From Candidatus Peribacteria bacterium (GTDB lineage Bacteria > Patescibacteria > JAEDAM01 > Absconditabacterales > Absconditicoccaceae): a DNA stretch of 8,901 bases. The position numbers and the translations under genes are program-made. The stretch is taken from positions 1-8,901 of the forward strand of contig JAITQZ010000082.1 of assembly GCA_031288635.1 (NCBI GenBank). Reading direction: 5' to 3'. The notes beneath the pieces are model-generated. The model was given only the letters and a program-made list of their open reading frames with translations. It was not told the origin of the DNA and did not search any database. Of this stretch, positions 124-8,542 are shown piece by piece (positions within the stretch are counted from its first letter, which is position 1; each line of letters starts with the position of its first letter).

Positions 124-1425
124 TTATTTCTCCTCACTATTGAGAAATTGCAGCACATAATACAAAATCATCAGCTCTATCCCACAGTAAAAAAATACCA
201 GAGAACACAAAAACTGCAACGGCAACTGCACCTGAAACAACAACACAACATTCACAATCGAAGCAAAACACGTCGCAATCGTCCAATACAAATAATCCTT
301 ACGAGAAAACAAAAATCTGGATTTTAAGCGGTCAATATAAAACAACGCCACCTGACAGATGAACGTCCACATCACCAGAAACGGCAAAATCCCCGCAATA
401 TTCCCTGCCCCTGTAATGAATAACGCCGAATAGAGTGCAAAGTTGACCACTAACGCAAGTGCAAATCTAGAAATATTGCTCACATATTGAATTTTCTTGA
501 GCACATAAACATTTCCCAGAAAGAATACTAAACTCAGCCGATACCACAAATGAAGACTCATCTCTGGAGTAGCAGTAGAAAGCAAATACAAATAATTCAC
601 TATCACAGCAACCAGCACCAACAAATTTGGCAACTCCAATAAACGCTGAAATCGCCCCGGAGACGAAACAATCCACTCGTGAAAAGAGACTTTTCGTTTG
701 GGGAAATTGAGCCTTTTCTTAATTTTTTCTCCCGCCAAAATACGACGCACCGACAACAAAGAGTGCTCTTTTTGCGGAACCTTCCACCTTTTCACCCATA
801 GCGTCAACAAATAGTACCCACTTAGGAGCAGCAAAGAAAGGAAAAGTCAGAATGCCAAACTAGCAACCGCATTTACAATCAACGAAACAATAACCACACC
901 ACCAGCAAGGAAAAGTTCATAACTATACTTCCTTTCCACGCGATAGAGCAACCCCAAAATGAACACAATGAATGCTAAAAATCCGAGCCAAAAATACGAC
1001 AATAACGAAAACATCGACCGAAAAACCGTTCCTCCCTCCGTAATCAAAGCATACCCCAAAATCACCACCATCACGCCATACGCTCAGAGTTCAAAGACCT
1101 TTTTTCCGTCAGCATAATCAAACACATACGAACCAATTAAGAGAAAAATATTGAGAAAAAACAGACATAAATAGACAATAATCTCACTAATCCCAATAAA
1201 AAAGAGTAATCCCGACAATCCCACTAAAATCAACATCCAAATCAAAAACAAGCTATACTTATACCAGACTTCATCAATTTTTAGCGTAGGAGAAAGCGTT
1301 TGTACCCCTTGTACTCCCATAAATATCAAAAATCCCAACGGCAAGATACCAAAATACCACATATCAATAGCATAAAAGAAGAGGGAGAATACTGCACACA
1401 CCATACAGCAAAGCAAAAATACCAT
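124..1425 (-). CDS. Polytopic membrane protein, unknown family
   Basis: The gene encodes 433 residues when UGA is read as Gly (UGA at residues 114 and 193) and ends at TAA. I chose the ATG at 1425. A TTG at 1434 is in frame but lies only 9 bases after the TAG of the upstream gene. Roughly 13-14 hydrophobic stretches are visible. The first eight cover residues 1 to about 210. A basic, soluble loop of about 50 residues follows (it contains KRWK and KIKKR), and then about six more segments run to the C-terminus. I see no transporter signature, catalytic motif or signal peptidase site, and I do not recognise the family. It follows the coiled-coil membrane protein with an 18-base gap, so the two are probably cotranscribed and may form one membrane complex. 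That is inferred from spacing only. The function is unknown. Confidence 0.8.
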
Positions 1426-1443
1426 TCCATCCAAAGAGCAAAG

Positions 1444-2670
1444 CTAAAAAGCAAACGTGGATTTGATGAGCGTAATCCCATAAAAATAAATACCAACGAG
1501 TACAAGGAAGGCAAGCACTTGATACCACACACGCTGAAATCCACACTGGTTATACCCATACAACAACAATCCTAAAAATCAGAATACTGACAAATAATAC
1601 AACAAATCTGACTCATTCCCCAATACCGTAGCCACCACCCAAACACCAGAAAGAATAACGATAATCCGTAATACCAAGTACTCTAACAAAGACAACGTAT
1701 TTGGCAAAAGAAAGGTCAATGAAGTAAATTGCTGACGAAAATCTTTTCGGAAAAAAACAGAAAAAATCGCCGCTTGCTTCCCCGACACATACAGACTTTC
1801 TGCCGTAGAAAGAGACTTTTTCAGGACAAATTTTTCTTCTGCTCTAATCAACGTCGCATATTGAGAAATAACATCAATATTGGTAATCACACTATTTCTA
1901 TCAATGAGAAATTTTTTGTCATCCAAAGCTGCAAAAACAGCGTCTTCAGCCTTATTGATATGGCTTTGTGCTTCTAATAAGAGTTGAGCCATTTTATTGA
2001 AATTGGTCCCTAGTCTGATTTTTTTGAGTTCATTGGAAAGTGCAATTAAAATTCTGACTTCATCAGAGCTCAAAATAGACTTTCCAATCAAAAGCATCTG
2101 GTCAATACGGTCAATATTGCTATTAATCACTTTGAGAGCCTGTTTAATATCTTTGTTTTCATATTTCTTGAGTTCTTTTTGCTGAAGCACTTGTTGCTGA
2201 GTTTCCCACTGTTTGTGCTCTGTCTCATACTCTTTTGCAATTTTCTGTATCAACTGTTGAATTTCCTCTTCTGAAAATGAGCCATCACTCACTACCACAT
2301 TTTGCGGAACCAATCAGAGAGAAAAGACATAACGAAGCGACTTTTCCAAGGTATCACTAAAAGTAACCAGAGAAAACTCTCTGTCTTTGAATACTACCGT
2401 CATACGGATTTTTCAAAATTCTTCCACTGGCTTGTCATATTTCTCCAGAGAAACCACGACCACCCCTCGATGCTCCAAAAATTCCTTAATCTGAAAAAGA
2501 TTCTCCACCCCTCCGATGAGAATGTCGAGTTGGTACTGCATACCATCTTTTTCTTTAATCCCAATAAGATGGAAAAACATTTTTGGAGCAGTAAAGAAGA
2601 GATAAAAAAAAGCACCATTTCATTTGATTTGTTGTATTCCCAATTCAACACTTATAACATAAGAAAGCAT
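1444..2670 (-). CDS. Coiled-coil protein with C-terminal membrane anchor, unknown family
   Basis: The gene encodes 408 residues with UGA as Gly at residues 17, 86, 119 and 364, and it stops at TAG. The ATG at 2670 is the first ATG in the open frame; no clear Shine-Dalgarno site precedes it. Residues 1-130 are a mixed alpha/beta soluble region. Residues about 133-195 are rich in Glu, Gln and Lys and look like a coiled coil (EEEIQQLIQKI and QQQVLQQKELKKYE). A second helical region runs to about 310. Three hydrophobic helices lie near 328-349, 355-372 and 382-402. There is no N-terminal signal peptide, so the soluble part probably faces the cytoplasm. It is transcribed divergently from the glycosylase gene (60-base gap) and sits just upstream of the polytopic membrane gene. 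I do not recognise the family. Confidence 0.8.
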
Positions 2671-2730
2671 ACAGCGATTGCAAGAGAAACTTACTTTGAT
2701 TTTATAAGGGAAAACCCTATACTGAAAAAA

Positions 2731-3318
2731 ATGATACCTCCCCAACCCATCGAAACCCACCCACTCGGGTTCTTCCTCCCTCAATGAACAAAACTACTCC
2801 TCTTAGGAAGTTTCCCTCCGCCAAAAACTCGTCGGTCTATGGAATTTTACTATCCAAATTTTCAAAATGATATGCGAAGAATGCTAGGACTTATTTTTCA
2901 TCACGATAAAAGCTTTTTCATCGCACCTAATGGAAAACAATTTGATGCAGAAAAAGCAAAAAAATTCTGCGAAGAAAACAAGATGGGGATTGGCGACACC
3001 GCAGAACAAATCATCCGCCTCCAAGGAAACGCTGCCGATGACAAATTACAAATAGTAAAACCAGCAAATATCGAAAAAATTTTAGAGAAAATCCCCGAAT
3101 GTCATACCCTCGTCGTCACCGGACAGAAGGCAATGGAAACTCTACGTTTTCTCATCGATTTCCCTCAACCAAAAATCTGAACCTGCTCCTCCACCACAAT
3201 CGCTAACAGAATAGTTCGCATTTACCGTATGCCCTCCACCTCTCGTGCCTATCCAAAACCCTTAGCAGAAAAAGCGAAAGTATATGAGACGATGTTTCGT
3301 GAAGCAGGAATAGTGTAA
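2731..3318 (+). CDS. Uracil-DNA glycosylase superfamily protein
   Basis: The gene encodes 195 residues with UGA as Gly at residues 19 and 150. It resembles a family often annotated as uracil- or hypoxanthine-DNA glycosylase, which removes deaminated bases from DNA to start base-excision repair in the cytoplasm. Visible signatures are LLLLGSFPPPKT (GSFPP at residues 26-30, active-site loop 1), MEFYYPNFQNDMRRMLGLIF from residue 37, the central GIGDTAEQIIR segment, the TGQKA segment, and the C-terminal YRMPSTSRAYP (MPSTSRAYP at 167-175), which matches the second substrate loop of the superfamily. Both UGA codons sit where relatives commonly have Gly (before TKLLLLGS, and in PKIG). The start at 2731 gives the usual short lead-in before GSFPP. 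The product is full length. Substrate preference cannot be told from sequence. Confidence 0.88.
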
Positions 3319-3319
3319 A

Positions 3320-3334
3320 TTTACTAGTAGTAAA
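3320..3334. repeat. Perfect short inverted repeat between the two plus-strand genes
   Basis: TTTACTA and TAGTAAA are exact reverse complements separated by one G, starting two bases after the TAA of the glycosylase gene. No T-run follows, so it is not a convincing terminator. It could be a regulator site for the transferase gene, or chance in AT-rich DNA. Confidence 0.3.
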
Positions 3335-3404
3335 ACAAAAAATCTCTATCCTCACTTGAAGAAACACTATCAACAATACAATTTTATAGGGTACATCCTC
3401 CCTT

Positions 3405-3920
3405 ATGCTCTCTTTCATCCCTACTCCCACAAAAGACCCCACACTAGTCAGCCAAATCGCGAAAGAAAGCATTTTTCAAATCACCGGAAAACTTCCAAAA
3501 AAAGATGAAAACTGAATTCCTATTTTTGAAGACAGTCATTTTTGGAGCATTTCCCACAAAGAAAATCTGATTTTTCTAGGAATAGACAGCGTCCCTTTGG
3601 GAGTAGATTTGGAAATCATCAAACCCAGAGGAACAGACGCCTTTTCGCTACATACCGACCCAGAATACCAACTCATTGGAGGGAAAAATTGGGAAAACTT
3701 CTACCGCCTCCGAACCCTCAAAGAAAGCATTATCAAACTCTATCTCAGCAATCTGGAAGAATTACAACACATAACATTGACTCATCTCGTGAGACAAGAC
3801 TGTAAAAGAGAAGGAATACCGTTTGATACGCAAATCCAAGGAAGCTTTTTAGAGAAACAATACATCTGCTTTACTTGAAAAGATAGAGAGAAAGTATATA
3901 GCATAGCTTACAATATCTAA
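3405..3920 (+). CDS. 4'-phosphopantetheinyl transferase (Sfp-type superfamily)
   Basis: The gene encodes 171 residues with UGA as Gly at residue 37 and again shortly before the C-terminus (codon at 3876). Members of this family transfer 4'-phosphopantetheine from CoA to a serine of acyl or peptidyl carrier proteins. Family signatures appear in order: WSISHKENL (SISH at residues 48-51), LGVDLEIIKPR with the metal-binding acidic pair Asp68 and Glu70, and NFYRLRTLKESIIKL with the Lys106-Glu107 pair corresponding to the family's WxxKEA motif. An in-frame TAG lies just upstream of the ATG, which fixes the start to within a few codons. At 171 residues it is shorter than Sfp (about 220) but contains the core motifs. 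It lies 86 bases after the glycosylase on the same strand, so cotranscription is possible. No carrier protein or synthase is present in the window, so the substrate is unknown. Confidence 0.82.
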
Positions 3921-4351: not shown

Positions 4352-4792
4352 TTAAAAAGGATCTCAACCAAATGAAGCAGGATTCCATCAAGGTCGTTTT
4401 TCCTTTTTCTTCATTGTAAAATGCTGAAAAACTTCGTTATATTCAGAATCTTTACAACAAGGTTTTACACGTCCTATCATCGTCGCTATCTCTTCATATC
4501 TTCTATAAGGTATATCAAGAGTATCTTTTATCATTCCATATTTCTCATATGCAAACTTTACAACAAGTTGTTTAATAGGAACATCAAAACGATCATCTAA
4601 AAAACCAGTCTCTTTAACTCGGAACATTGTATGTCTCCTATCTTCATTCTTCTCTTGCATTACATCAAAATCAAGTATTTGAAACACAACGGAACGAACT
4701 CTTCTTTCCAATTCTTCTTGATCCTTTGCTGCTGAAAAGAAAGTATGTACGCGATCCATAAATTCGTTTGATCAACTTGGCATTTTTAACAT
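4352..4792 (-). CDS. Unknown protein, C-terminal part of an apparently frameshifted gene
   Basis: The frame is open for 146 residues from the ATG at 4792 (alternatives ATG 4783 and ATG 4759), with UGA as Gly in the PSGSNEF segment and twice near the C-terminus, ending FGGDPF before TAA. Under the standard code it would stop early at 4388. The protein is soluble and charged, with segments such as KDQEELERRVRSVV, EDRRHTMFRVKETGF and YRRYEEIATMIGRVKPCC. I recognise no domain. It overlaps the 3' part of the gene starting at 4979 in another frame by about 155 bases, far too long for ordinary overlapping genes. Removing one A from the five-A tract at 4783-4787 fuses the two into one 208-residue protein through DVK-MPSGSNEF. 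I favour a single gene with a one-base indel or a frameshift. Confidence 0.65.
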
Positions 4793-4979
4793 CCAAATAA
4801 AATATACTATATAGTATACTTAAATTAATAAACATAGCAACATTTCTCCAATATTTTTTATCAACTACTAAAGAATAACTAGGTGCAATCTTTTTCAACA
4901 CTTTTTCCAAAAACTCCTTTTCAACAAAAACTTCTCTGATAGTATCAAGGTTCTCCCTAATGAGCTTAATTTCATTCAT
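4638..4979 (-). CDS. Unknown protein, N-terminal part of an apparently frameshifted gene
   Basis: The ATG at 4979 opens a frame that under code 25 runs to TAG at 4638 (113 residues). Only the first 65 or so residues (MNEIKLIRENLDTIREVF through YLDVK) look like protein. After that the frame becomes Arg- and Ser-rich shadow sequence (GSRRIGKKSSFRC), while the neighbouring frame carries the coding signal. The visible part is a charged helical N-terminus followed by a moderately hydrophobic stretch around NVAMFINLSILYSIFYL. A TATACT box (4985-4990 on the minus strand) sits only 5 bases before the ATG and there is no Shine-Dalgarno site, so the mRNA may be leaderless. It lies 87 bases downstream of the large protease-like gene. 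The function is unknown. Confidence 0.5.
4803..4818. repeat. 16-bp perfect palindrome
   Basis: TATACTATATAGTATA equals its own reverse complement. It lies inside the 5' part of the frameshifted gene, about 15 bases upstream of the A-tract where the frame changes. On the minus strand it includes TATACT, so it could hold an internal promoter for the downstream part, or it could be coding sequence that is palindromic by chance. Confidence 0.45.
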
Positions 4980-4984
4980 TTTGT

Positions 4985-4990
4985 AGTATA
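4985..4990 (-). promoter_or_regulatory. -10 box candidate for the split gene, possibly leaderless
   Basis: The minus strand reads TATACT, then ACAAA, then ATG. A start site 6-8 bases past the box would fall at or next to the ATG. The -35 region is weak. The box has the same TATACTAC sequence as the putative promoter at 8545-8550. Confidence 0.4.
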
Positions 4991-5066
4991 TTGAAAAGTT
5001 CTAAAAATAAGGTAAGTGATAAATTACCGAGTAATTTAGTGGATTTTGTTAAAAAATAAAGAAGCT

Positions 5067-8000
5067 TTAATGAAAAGATCTTTTAATAAATTTTTTAACA
5101 AAGGTTTGCCCTCCTACTATTCATTTGATAAGATAGTTTCAAGTGGGTAAATTAGCTACATTGATATTTTCTTTGGTTGAAACGATGTTTCCGTGTGATA
5201 CAGCATTCCCATTCATAGTAAAAATTTGGAAATCTCCTTTTTTATCTGCAGTTGTATCTCAAAATTCCAGATGAAGAATATCTAGTACAGGATTAGGATA
5301 GAGTTTTACATCATGCTCCTCCAACTTTTCAACTTGTGAAATTGCGGTGTTTCAGTCTATTGTAAGTAGGATTTTTCCATCAGATTCCACTCTAAAATGA
5401 TTATCGTAAGTGGTCTCATCTCCATTAGTATCTACTACTGTCCTAGGTAATCGTTTTGAATAAGAGGTATAAGGAATCTCAAATGATTGATCTTCTCTCG
5501 CTTCATCTGTATGAATCACAAGCATATATTTTCTATCAATCTGCTTCTTTTCTGCTATGATAGTACTATTCCCATCAGCAATCCTCCATTTCTCCTCATT
5601 TTCTTTCGAAATAAAAAAATTTCAAAATTTTCCTTCAGATAATTCAAAATCTTCTGCATCATCTCCATCATTAGCCAAAATATCAATTTCTTTTGTGGTA
5701 TTGAGTGATAGAGATACTTCATCAATATTCCCTTCTATATCCTTGCGACCATCATATATTGCTGTTGGGACATAATAATCTGTAAATACTACCTCTCAGG
5801 ATTCATTATATCGTGATTTTCAGCTTCCAGCATCCATTATAGGTGCGAATGTTTTACATTTTCACCATTTTGCCACTGCATGTGCCATGTTCATTATATC
5901 TTCGCCATATGTACTCCCTGTAGAACATGAATTGAATGTCACTGTTCATCATTCAATGTATTTCCCCAATTCTTGGATGAAATTTTTATCCCCACTATTC
6001 ATCATCCCATCAGATAGTTCATCAGAAATCGTGCTTCTCTTTAAGCTTCTCAATTCCGTCCCATCTTTATAGCCGTGTCAGGCAATAATTACGTTCGGGT
6101 TTTCTCGTGTCCCTCCAGCTCACAGATAGGAAGTATGAAACTTTTCCATTTTGGGAAAGAAAAGTTCAGGATATCATCATGGTTCAAAGACCCTTACATC
6201 ATAATAAGGAAGCAGATCGTTAATGTTTCTATCCTCAAAAACTCTTTGAGCTTGATAATACAATCAGTTTCTATCTTCATTTCCAATCATACTATCTATC
6301 GCTCCATTCCAATCAGATTTAGACATAAAAATAGGAAAGACTGGTTTTCAAGTAGGAGCATCTTTATTCTCAAAGAGATGAGATAAAACATTTACCCCGT
6401 ACCTAGAAAATCTTGTAATATTATAGGTATCAAACAGTGTAGTCAGTATTTCTTTTTCAGGAAACATTTCTTTTATCATCCTCATTTGTAAAAGATCATT
6501 GAGAAATATCGCCTTTTCTCTGTCCCAATGAGGACTAACAGCATACATCTCCAAAAGCTTTGACTCTTCTATTCAAAGGACTTCTTCTGTGGCAAATTGG
6601 TTTAATTTTCCGATACTTTCTTTTCCAAACAAACACAATGAATACATCCATAGCAATTGTTTTTGTGAATTATCTGAAACAGCGTTTATTTTAGCGTTTA
6701 CTTCCTCCAGAGTTAATCCCACTTGTTTCATAGTAAGAGAACTATCAGTACCTTGTATATAATTGGTATAGCTTTTCATAGCTGCAAGGATCGCATTAGT
6801 GTCCGAAGATTCTTTGATAATGGTTGATCCCAAGGATACAACTTCATGACCAATGCCATTATAATTATAGGTATATTCTGTGATACTATCCTGTAAAATT
6901 CAGTCTCGCACCGTATAATTTCATTCAGCCTTTAGCATCTCGCAAATAGCGAACTTTTCTTCATCGCTTACACTATCATCCTCTTCCATTCAAAAGATAG
7001 ATTTATATAAACCTTGATAATTACTTTCTGTGCAAAATAAAAGCTTTGTACAGGCATTTAATCTATTATCATTATTAACCATTGTTTTAATGGACTTATA
7101 GAGATTACTACCAGAGTTTCTGGAACAGTGAAACAAATAGGTACTGACCAAGATTGATTTTTTTGATAAGTCAGTCAAGGAGATCAACTCTTCCAAGAAA
7201 ATCTCCTCTTGGTTGGTTTTTGAAAGCTTATCTACATATTCATACAAAGGGTTACTAATTGCTGACGAGAAGAGTGGTGCAGCGTTGTGGTGTTGATGTC
7301 CTAATTGTTTTATATAGATTTCCGCAGCCTCGTCCATGATACTCATAATTGAAGTTGGGAATAGTTTTTCTGATAAGCTATGAAGGATATTTAGAGTGGA
7401 TATATTGGTCTCACAAGGATTTATTTCATATATAGAATAGCATTTTTTGTATATCCTTTGATAATCTTCTTGAGTAAAGCTAGAAGGAAGATTATTTGCC
7501 AGCCTTTGGAATAATCTATCCAACACTGCCACATTATATTGTTTGGACTGTAGCAACTGATCTATCATCTTCTCCGAAGCCATAAAAAACTTTCACGCTG
7601 ATTGCTCATCATTGAATCACCAACGATGTAAATCTGACAGCTGAGACAGAAGATTTGTATATCCCATTACGGTAGATGAATCAATAGTAATAGAAAGAAT
7701 AACATCACAAGCAACACTAATGAGTGCCTCTCCTTCTTCTTTCGAAAAAACATTTTCATTAACAAAATACATACGATTCATGGTTTGAAGTAATGTTTGT
7801 AGTTCTTCTTTATTCCCACTTGTCATAATTTGTTTTATCTTTTCTATATTCACTGTATTATTTTCTGCATTGTATAGTTCATGATCGGATTCATCAATGA
7901 CTGTAGTTGTTTCCCATCTCCCTTCCAGATTCATTTTTAATTTAATAAACTTCTCCCACAGTGCAACATCGTTTCCTTGAAAGAAGCTAATATCTTTCGA

Positions 8001-8207
8001 AAATTTTTCTTTATAGAACGTTCAATAGGGCGTTTCTCCATCAGAAAACTTATAGAGTAAGTCATAATCCGTTTTTCATGATTTTGAGAAGATATTAGCA
8101 CGTAAAGCAACATTGATTTCTCTGATGAGTAGCTCCTCTGCTGGCAGAAGTTTTTCATAAGACAATATTACTTCTTTCTCATAGTTTTCTGGCATGGAAT
8201 GTAACAT
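5067..8207 (-). CDS. Large clan CD (caspase/gingipain-like) cysteine-protease-like protein with a T9SS-type C-terminal sorting tail
   Basis: The gene encodes 1046 residues, with 24 in-frame UGA codons traced as Gly and a TAA stop. The ATG at 8207 overlaps the upstream TAA (TAATG). Residues 1 to about 620 are mostly alpha-helical, with no signal peptide or recognised repeat signature. Residues about 622-825 look like a caspase-fold peptidase: the strand PVFPIF, then SDWNGA, then YDVRVFEPGG, then NVIIAGHG with the candidate catalytic His711, then TVTFNSCSTG with the candidate Cys761. The 50-residue His-Cys gap fits clan CD. Residues about 826-965 are a beta-rich linker resembling cadherin/Ig-like modules (EIDILANDGDD). 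Residues about 968-1046 match the Por-secretion tail: KLYPNPV, FQIFTMNGNAV, INVANLPTGNYLIKG and FVKKFIKR. A surface or secreted protease is inferred. A CHAT-like intracellular protease is the alternative for the catalytic domain. Confidence 0.88.
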
Positions 8208-8542
8208 TAAAAAATAAAATCTGGAATCATGTTTTCTTTTTCTTGTGCCTCTTGTTCTTGGATTCTCTTGAGATGCTGTTGTACTTTCCTTTGTTTCTTT
8301 TCATAATTATATTGCACTACAAAATCTCAGAACTCAATAATAGCTTTATAGGTATCATCAAGAAATTTTTCATCTACTTCCGTACATTTGATACATACCA
8401 TCGTCTGCCTAAAAATATCATCAGAGGGTTTCAGTTGATCCAATAAAGTTATCAGCTTTTCTTTTTTCTTTTCAAAAGAAAGTTTGTGGAATTGAATTGA
8501 TAGAGTATTCAAAATAGTTGTATAAAGAATAAAAACACACAA
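8207..8542 (-). CDS. Small helical protein, first gene of the protease-like operon
   Basis: The frame is open for 111 residues from a TTG at 8542, with one UGA as Gly (8327-8329), ending at TAA, which shares one base with the ATG of the large gene. The start is uncertain because no in-frame ATG gives a long product. A TTG at 8512 is the alternative, and would suit a transcription start near 8538 better. The N-terminal dozen residues of the long form are hydrophobic (CVFILYTTIL). The rest is charged and helical, with EKKKEKLITLLDQL, a small CIKC motif, and a Gln/Glu/Lys-rich C-terminus (KKQRKVQQHLKRIQEQEAQEKE) that looks like a coiled coil. The stop-start overlap implies translational coupling, so it may be a partner, chaperone or regulator of the protease-like protein. 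I do not recognise a family. Confidence 0.62.

Follow-up and report, generated by a model that had tools for sequence, protein, structure and literature searches.

Does a bacterium that reads UGA as glycine carry a genuine type IX secretion system (T9SS) sorting tail, and if it does, where did the tail come from and what might it do there? The question was raised by an earlier note on an 8,901-nucleotide contig assigned to Candidatus Peribacteria bacterium (JAITQZ010000082.1, assembly GCA_031288635.1; order Absconditabacterales), hereafter called the window, in which such a tail was described at the end of a protein written in genetic code 25 (UGA=Gly). The protein is encoded by a 1046-residue open reading frame (ORF) at 5067 to 8207 on the minus strand, stop codon included, that remains open when TGA is read as Gly. 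The fullest account of it, in which a lineage-specific protein gained the tail by acquisition and now employs it for binding, is in our judgment evenly balanced between right and wrong, and its parts differ in strength.

A T9SS type A sorting domain almost certainly forms the C-terminal end of the protein. The domain spans residues 969 to 1043 (5079 to 5303, minus strand) and was recovered when the code-25 translation was searched by hmmscan with both family profiles, giving 42.7 bits (E=7.1e-11) over profile positions 1 to 74 of 75 for PF18962 and 42.8 bits (E=3.9e-11) over positions 1 to 72 of 72 for TIGR04183, both above the curated cut-offs of 27 and 23 bits, respectively. The match ends at residue 1043 of 1046, placing the domain at the extreme C terminus. 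The claim of a type A tail was therefore borne out over nearly the entire length of both profiles, and neither of the outcomes that could have overturned it, a missing profile match or a better match to an unrelated Ig-like domain, was observed. The pieces quoted for the tail (KLYPNPV, FQIFTMNGNAV, INVANLPTGNYLIKG, and FVKKFIKR) were all found; FVKKFIKR had been given as the terminus, but it is followed by the three residues SFH.

To the same effect, the window tail could be aligned along its whole length with 29 Bacteroidota tails, which were chosen by their similarity to it. Six residues were invariant across the 30 rows (P971, N972, P973, G1000, G1023, and Y1025), and all were kept in the window tail, where the conserved PNP, Gly, and LPxGxY features were all present. 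A profile of the 29 tails scored the ORF at 90.6 bits, against 12.5 bits for the best of 2000 shuffled tails; because the 29 tails were picked by similarity, the 90.6 bits are inflated, and only the gap to the shuffles counts. Glycine was the best reading of TGA by profile score (G, 90.6; C, 85.8; S, 85.0; X, 84.4; R, 83.2; W, 82.8). The top two structural matches of the modelled tail were T9SS cargo tails, and the predicted structure has the beta-sandwich fold of a T9SS C-terminal domain (CTD); the structural-match rows labelled VIA comprise mostly the tail (model residues 363 to 447). A single-sequence search of the Protein Data Bank (PDB) gave nothing significant (7pzj, E 0.12; 8qb1, E 0.61), whereas a profile search of the PDB was significant.

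The spelling of the tail bears on how long it may have resided in this genome. Under translation table 11 only fragments of the ORF were obtained, and none of at least 60 residues spanned the tail on the minus strand; with UGA read as Gly, its 24 in-frame UGA codons left the frame open to the end. Three of these codons lie in the tail, at G983, G1023, and G1029. The one at 5139 to 5141 (minus strand) encodes G1023 of LPxGxY, a position occupied by Gly in all 30 aligned rows. The earlier statement that UGA had been written at conserved glycines is consequently true for one invariant glycine, because G983 and G1029 fall in variable columns of the alignment. The share of Gly codons written as UGA was alike in the tail (3 of 8) and in the body (21 of 57; Fisher p = 1), although eight codons carry little power. 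Any UGA codon within the tail argues against an assembly join or a recent arrival from a genome using the standard code, which supports the proposal that the tail is no recent contaminant and has been adapted to the recoded genome. Judged from the sequence, the window is a code-25 stretch, with UGA standing at glycine columns of relatives both at G1023 and in a neighboring UDG-like gene; the code by itself would suggest Gracilibacteria or Absconditabacteria as the lineage. In the whole 1046-residue gene, UGA spelled 24 of 65 Gly codons, compared with 9 of 68 in the four genes at 124 to 3920 (p=0.002) and 16 of 82 in all seven other ORFs (p=0.025). The excess is not special to this gene, because the three small ORFs around it together reach 7 of 14. 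Viewed by region, the half of the window at 4352 to 8542 (minus strand) spells more of its glycines as UGA than do the four genes at 124 to 3920.

Two lines of evidence bear on the origin of the tail, which quite probably lies in a Bacteroidota source. Tail matches were found in 333 of 393 genomes in the order of the genome holding Parabacteroides locus L001 (best, 51 bits), in 73 of 296 genomes sampled from its phylum (best, 45.4 bits), and in 35 of 123 genomes of its family (best, 35.6 bits); the lower share in the phylum sample than in the order may arise because the sample is weighted to close relatives of that genome. The earlier note had called the tail characteristic of Bacteroidota and relatives, but its profile also matches outside Bacteroidota: in the phylum of the genome with Treponema locus L038, 23 of the 149 genomes searched scored above the PF18962 cut-off. 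The same was seen in 1 of 200 genomes from the phylum of the genome with Neisseria locus L014, in two of four single genomes, and in the one further genome searched, with none of 14 control genomes above the cut-off and one control matching below it. Because the profile passes in the Neisseria and Treponema phyla, either the tail travels outside Bacteroidota or the bins are mixed with foreign contigs. The Treponema search, which was tied to a metagenome-assembled genome, also contained three genomes with 14 to 20 PF18962 matches each at E up to 0.001.

The second line is the UDG-like gene at 2731 to 3318 (plus strand), which encodes 195 residues, contains two UGA-Gly codons, and has a Parabacteroides affinity. 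Its product scored 31.8 bits against the DNA-deoxyinosine glycosylase family TIGR04274, below the cut-off of 80. Among the GTDB contigs 85 relatives were matched and 80 were kept, 76 of them from Bacteroidota going by their record titles, and the top-ranked relative was from Parabacteroides, with 60% identity; the scan depends on exact 8-residue matches to the window protein and may miss code-25 homologues. In a tree of the window gene and 41 of the 80 loci, chosen by hand (the 39 dropped loci include L080, a partial match at 62% from Parabacteroides, and row L055 is one codon short), the window grouped with four Parabacteroides rows in one clade (100/96). The inner fork joining it to three of them stood at 97/76, below a star, and the end branch of the window was long (0.9). 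At one of the UGA codons, 39 of 41 relatives have Gly; at the other, 21 of 41 do, and the four Parabacteroides rows have Asn or Asp. This is likely a Bacteroidales-derived gene on a code-25 contig, and because a UGA-bearing neighbor of the tail gene nests among Parabacteroides, a Bacteroidota source for the tail is likely too.

A tree of tail sequences was also built, with 45 rows (the window and 44 of 52 tail loci). The window had an end branch of 0.27 against a median of 0.79, in a set whose rows were selected by similarity to the window. With only 3 of its 42 inner branches starred, the tree does not allow a donor to be named. The suggested transfer from Bacteroidota accordingly stands as a likely relationship, and its donor does not follow from the tree. 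A single donor for the tail and the UDG-like gene is disfavored, because the highest tail scores occur across the order, and the family to which the UDG donor belongs does not reach them.

The roughly 960 residues preceding the tail had no relative in any of the collections searched and apparently form a lineage-specific protein known only here. In a set of 5.8 billion proteins, the whole protein yielded 7995 scored candidates with none at E up to 1e-3, residues 660 to 880 yielded 1044 with none at E up to 0.1, and residues 955 to 1046 yielded 132 with none at E up to 0.01; these searches need exact short words, and the last therefore missed even the Bacteroidota tails recovered by the genome searches. 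Pattern matches to the protein in GTDB contigs (14) and in viral contigs (4) included no relatives, 50,697 phage records gave no match, and four plasmid records held weak tail matches (E 0.02 to 0.04). In the phylum sample of 296 genomes, in which at most two candidates were scored per genome, 50 matched the protein, and among the matches listed all began between residues 844 and 967. Residues 1 to 611 (6375 to 8207, minus strand) are predicted to be mostly helical by a low-confidence model; modelled from its sequence alone, the whole protein had a mean predicted local distance difference test (pLDDT) score of 37.6. They are followed by a putative alpha/beta domain at residues 612 to 800 (5808 to 6374, minus strand) and a partly beta-rich linker at residues 801 to 959 (5331 to 5807, minus strand), in which strands were modelled at residues 859 to 900 with a pLDDT of about 68 to 86 in blocks of ten. 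The end of the linker could also be aligned with the stretch preceding some Bacteroidota tails.

In the putative alpha/beta domain, low-confidence models placed an alternating strand/helix pattern with the motifs NVIIAGHG (H711) and TVTFNSCSTG (C761) at strand ends. H711-G712 and C761 thereby form HG and SC motifs 50 residues apart in a clan-CD-like strand order, again in low-confidence models. Such a strand/helix pattern with HG and Cys motifs is expected of a caspase/CHAT-like fold. No Pfam family was matched by residues 600 to 815 at E up to 10, in a search whose HMMER filters remove most weak matches, and no clan CD chain in the PDB was matched by the sequence of residues 600 to 804 at E up to 10. 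The region is possibly an HG...C cysteine-protease fold and is offered as a lead.

Cargo of the T9SS requires an N-terminal Sec signal peptide in addition to the tail (PMC5445135). By hydropathy and reading frames, the 1046-residue ORF had no signal peptide-like start and, in residues 1 to 611, no clear membrane segment: the best 19-residue hydropathy was 0.65 for windows starting before residue 60, and the best in the protein was 1.63 at residue 162. The in-frame stretch upstream contained no ATG, GTG, or TTG before its stop and no hydrophobic run. At 8205 to 8209 (minus strand) the sequence TAATG overlaps the stop of an upstream ORF with the start of the 1046-residue ORF, an arrangement suggestive of translational coupling. 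The upstream ORF (8207 to 8542, minus strand; 111 residues, start uncertain) is perhaps on the same transcript and matched no family above cut-off. With no hydrophobic N terminus and no in-frame start upstream, the idea that the tail serves as an export tag in the source cell is not supported. Because no Sec signal is visible, the protein is not expected to leave the source cell as T9SS cargo, and it is probably not exported by a T9SS of its own cell.

The explanation we favor is that the sorting domain came from Bacteroidota, possibly from a host or prey, and became joined to a lineage-specific protein. Enough time would since have passed for UGA codons to arise in it, one of them at its most conserved glycine. 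Having no visible Sec signal, the protein would not be exported from the source cell as T9SS cargo, and the tail may instead act as a stable C-terminal beta-sandwich module for binding or anchoring on a large, mostly helical protein, a role to which we give slightly less than even weight. The earlier interpretation would thus stand as to the type A tail, its UGA=Gly spelling, and its likely Bacteroidota relationship, and lack support as to use in export from the source cell. Several points weigh against this explanation. From the third structural match downward, T9SS tails tied in Z score with DUF3244 Ig-like proteins. The tail lies near the family norm (end branch of 0.27 versus a median of 0.79), and its T9SS binding surface could still be in use. 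The equality of UGA use in tail and body depends on eight Gly codons (95% interval, 9 to 76%) and carries little power. The signal-peptide test consisted of hydropathy and reading frames, and the protease idea is built on motifs and low-confidence models. Finally, the searches yielded no relative of the whole protein with which the fusion event or the function could be compared.

Alternatively, the protein might be an effector: a code-25 episymbiont or predator living on Bacteroidota would deliver it, the tail would dock on PorV, and the T9SS of the host would display or release it. The retention of every family-invariant residue and of the fold fits this idea, as do the gene of Parabacteroides affinity in the same window and a correlation in coverage between Absconditabacteria and Bacteroidetes in microbial mats, rated there as moderate support (PMC8406219); a phage-encoded T9SS cargo that presumably hijacks the host system provides a precedent (PMC7468147). 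We nonetheless consider it unlikely, as the protein would need some other route into the host periplasm given that no signal peptide was seen, the source genome has no known delivery system or host, and the family of the UDG donor does not hold the best tails. Host associations of Absconditabacteria and Gracilibacteria are themselves described as largely unknown (PMC8406219). Export by an unrecognized translocon of the cell itself, with a true N terminus and signal peptide lost through assembly error or lying in another frame, would account for a tail with all type A features. It appears quite improbable in view of the TAATG overlap at the start and the upstream in-frame stretch devoid of a start or hydrophobic run. 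Vampirococcus, in which 126 genes were gained by transfer, is reported to have a Sec system and type IV pili (PMC8080830), and for groundwater Gracilibacteria, Sec, type II, and type IV systems are reported, with the T9SS unmentioned in the portion of that report considered here (PMC11452946). Among the papers listed by a literature search, mostly outside subscription journals, none dealt with the T9SS or its tails in Gracilibacteria, Absconditabacteria, Patescibacteria, or the candidate phyla radiation.

A tail captured by recombination and merely tolerated would likewise show no export signal, and the protein has no relatives that could reveal constraint. This is also an unlikely explanation, since the six family-invariant residues are all kept and UGA codons have had time to arise, and from these two features it follows that the tail persisted without visible decay. 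That the window derives from a mobile element using code 25, such as a phage or prophage, and that the tail belongs to a phage-borne T9SS cargo, is conceivable in that code 25 is the rule among phages predicted for Absconditabacteria, most of which use it (PMC10746230), and that a phage-encoded cargo exists (PMC7468147). We rate it as very unlikely: the tail protein was unmatched in the phage records and viral contigs, plasmid DNA did not match the window, and one of its eight proteins, a 378-residue ORF, gave a weak PHROGs match (E=0.009) to a family of unknown function. Least probable is contamination or misassembly, in which Bacteroidota DNA was joined onto a code-25 contig. The Bacteroidota-like pieces in the window would suit it, but it is largely refuted by the three in-frame UGA codons in the tail and the two in the UDG-like gene, one of which falls where 39 of 41 relatives have Gly.

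Other ORFs of the window were surveyed alongside. The ORF at 3405 to 3920 (plus strand) gave a weak match to a 4'-phosphopantetheinyl transferase (18.7 bits versus a cut-off of 25); within the order of the Parabacteroides L001 genome, 5 of 99 genomes contained weak matches to it. On the minus strand at 4352 to 4979, ORFs 4352 to 4792 and 4638 to 4979 overlap in different frames, representing one shifted gene or two genes, and neither matched a family above cut-off. Two adjoining ORFs at 124 to 2580 (minus strand) also lacked a family above cut-off; the one at 124 to 1434 resembles a many-helix membrane protein by eye, and its neighbor has C-terminal hydrophobic stretches. Defense families were absent from the four window proteins tested, and viral contigs held no relatives of three neighbor proteins. 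A separate scan of viral contigs for other code-25 tails returned 27 stretches matching the PNP...LPxG(UGA)xY DNA pattern, none of which contained a tail after translation.

A sorting tail of Bacteroidota type and a gene resembling those of Parabacteroides lie within the same 9 kb, both spelled in the recoded genetic code, and together they point to a testable partner. Were the tail still to bind a T9SS, it would constitute a direct molecular link from an episymbiont to the secretion machinery of its host, and were the machinery hijacked, this would be a bacterial parasite exploiting the secretion machine of its prey, as suggested for a phage. Even as a mere reused domain, it would exemplify a T9SS tail uncoupled from export.

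Compared with known systems, the tail is, as a domain, a full member of the T9SS type A family (TIGR04183, PF18962), which includes the mirolase CTD (8qb1) and NucA-CTD (8glk). It shares with them a whole-profile match above cut-off at the extreme C terminus, the PNP, conserved Gly, and LPxGxY features, a basic end, and the beta-sandwich fold; it differs in its UGA=Gly spelling and in a carrier protein that, by hydropathy and reading frames, has no visible Sec signal of the kind needed by T9SS cargo. The putative domain at residues 612 to 800 resembles the clan CD cysteine peptidases (caspase, CHAT, and gingipain) in its HG and SC motifs after predicted strands, behind a helical region, but differs in matching none of them by profile or sequence, and a catalytic role is putative. 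The closest parallels for a sorting tail encoded outside a T9SS-bearing cell are the phage-encoded T9SS cargo described for Cryophage (PMC7468147) and the crAss-BACON ORF with a T9SS sorting domain (PMC6949934); in contrast to both, the carrier here resembles a cellular code-25 contig.
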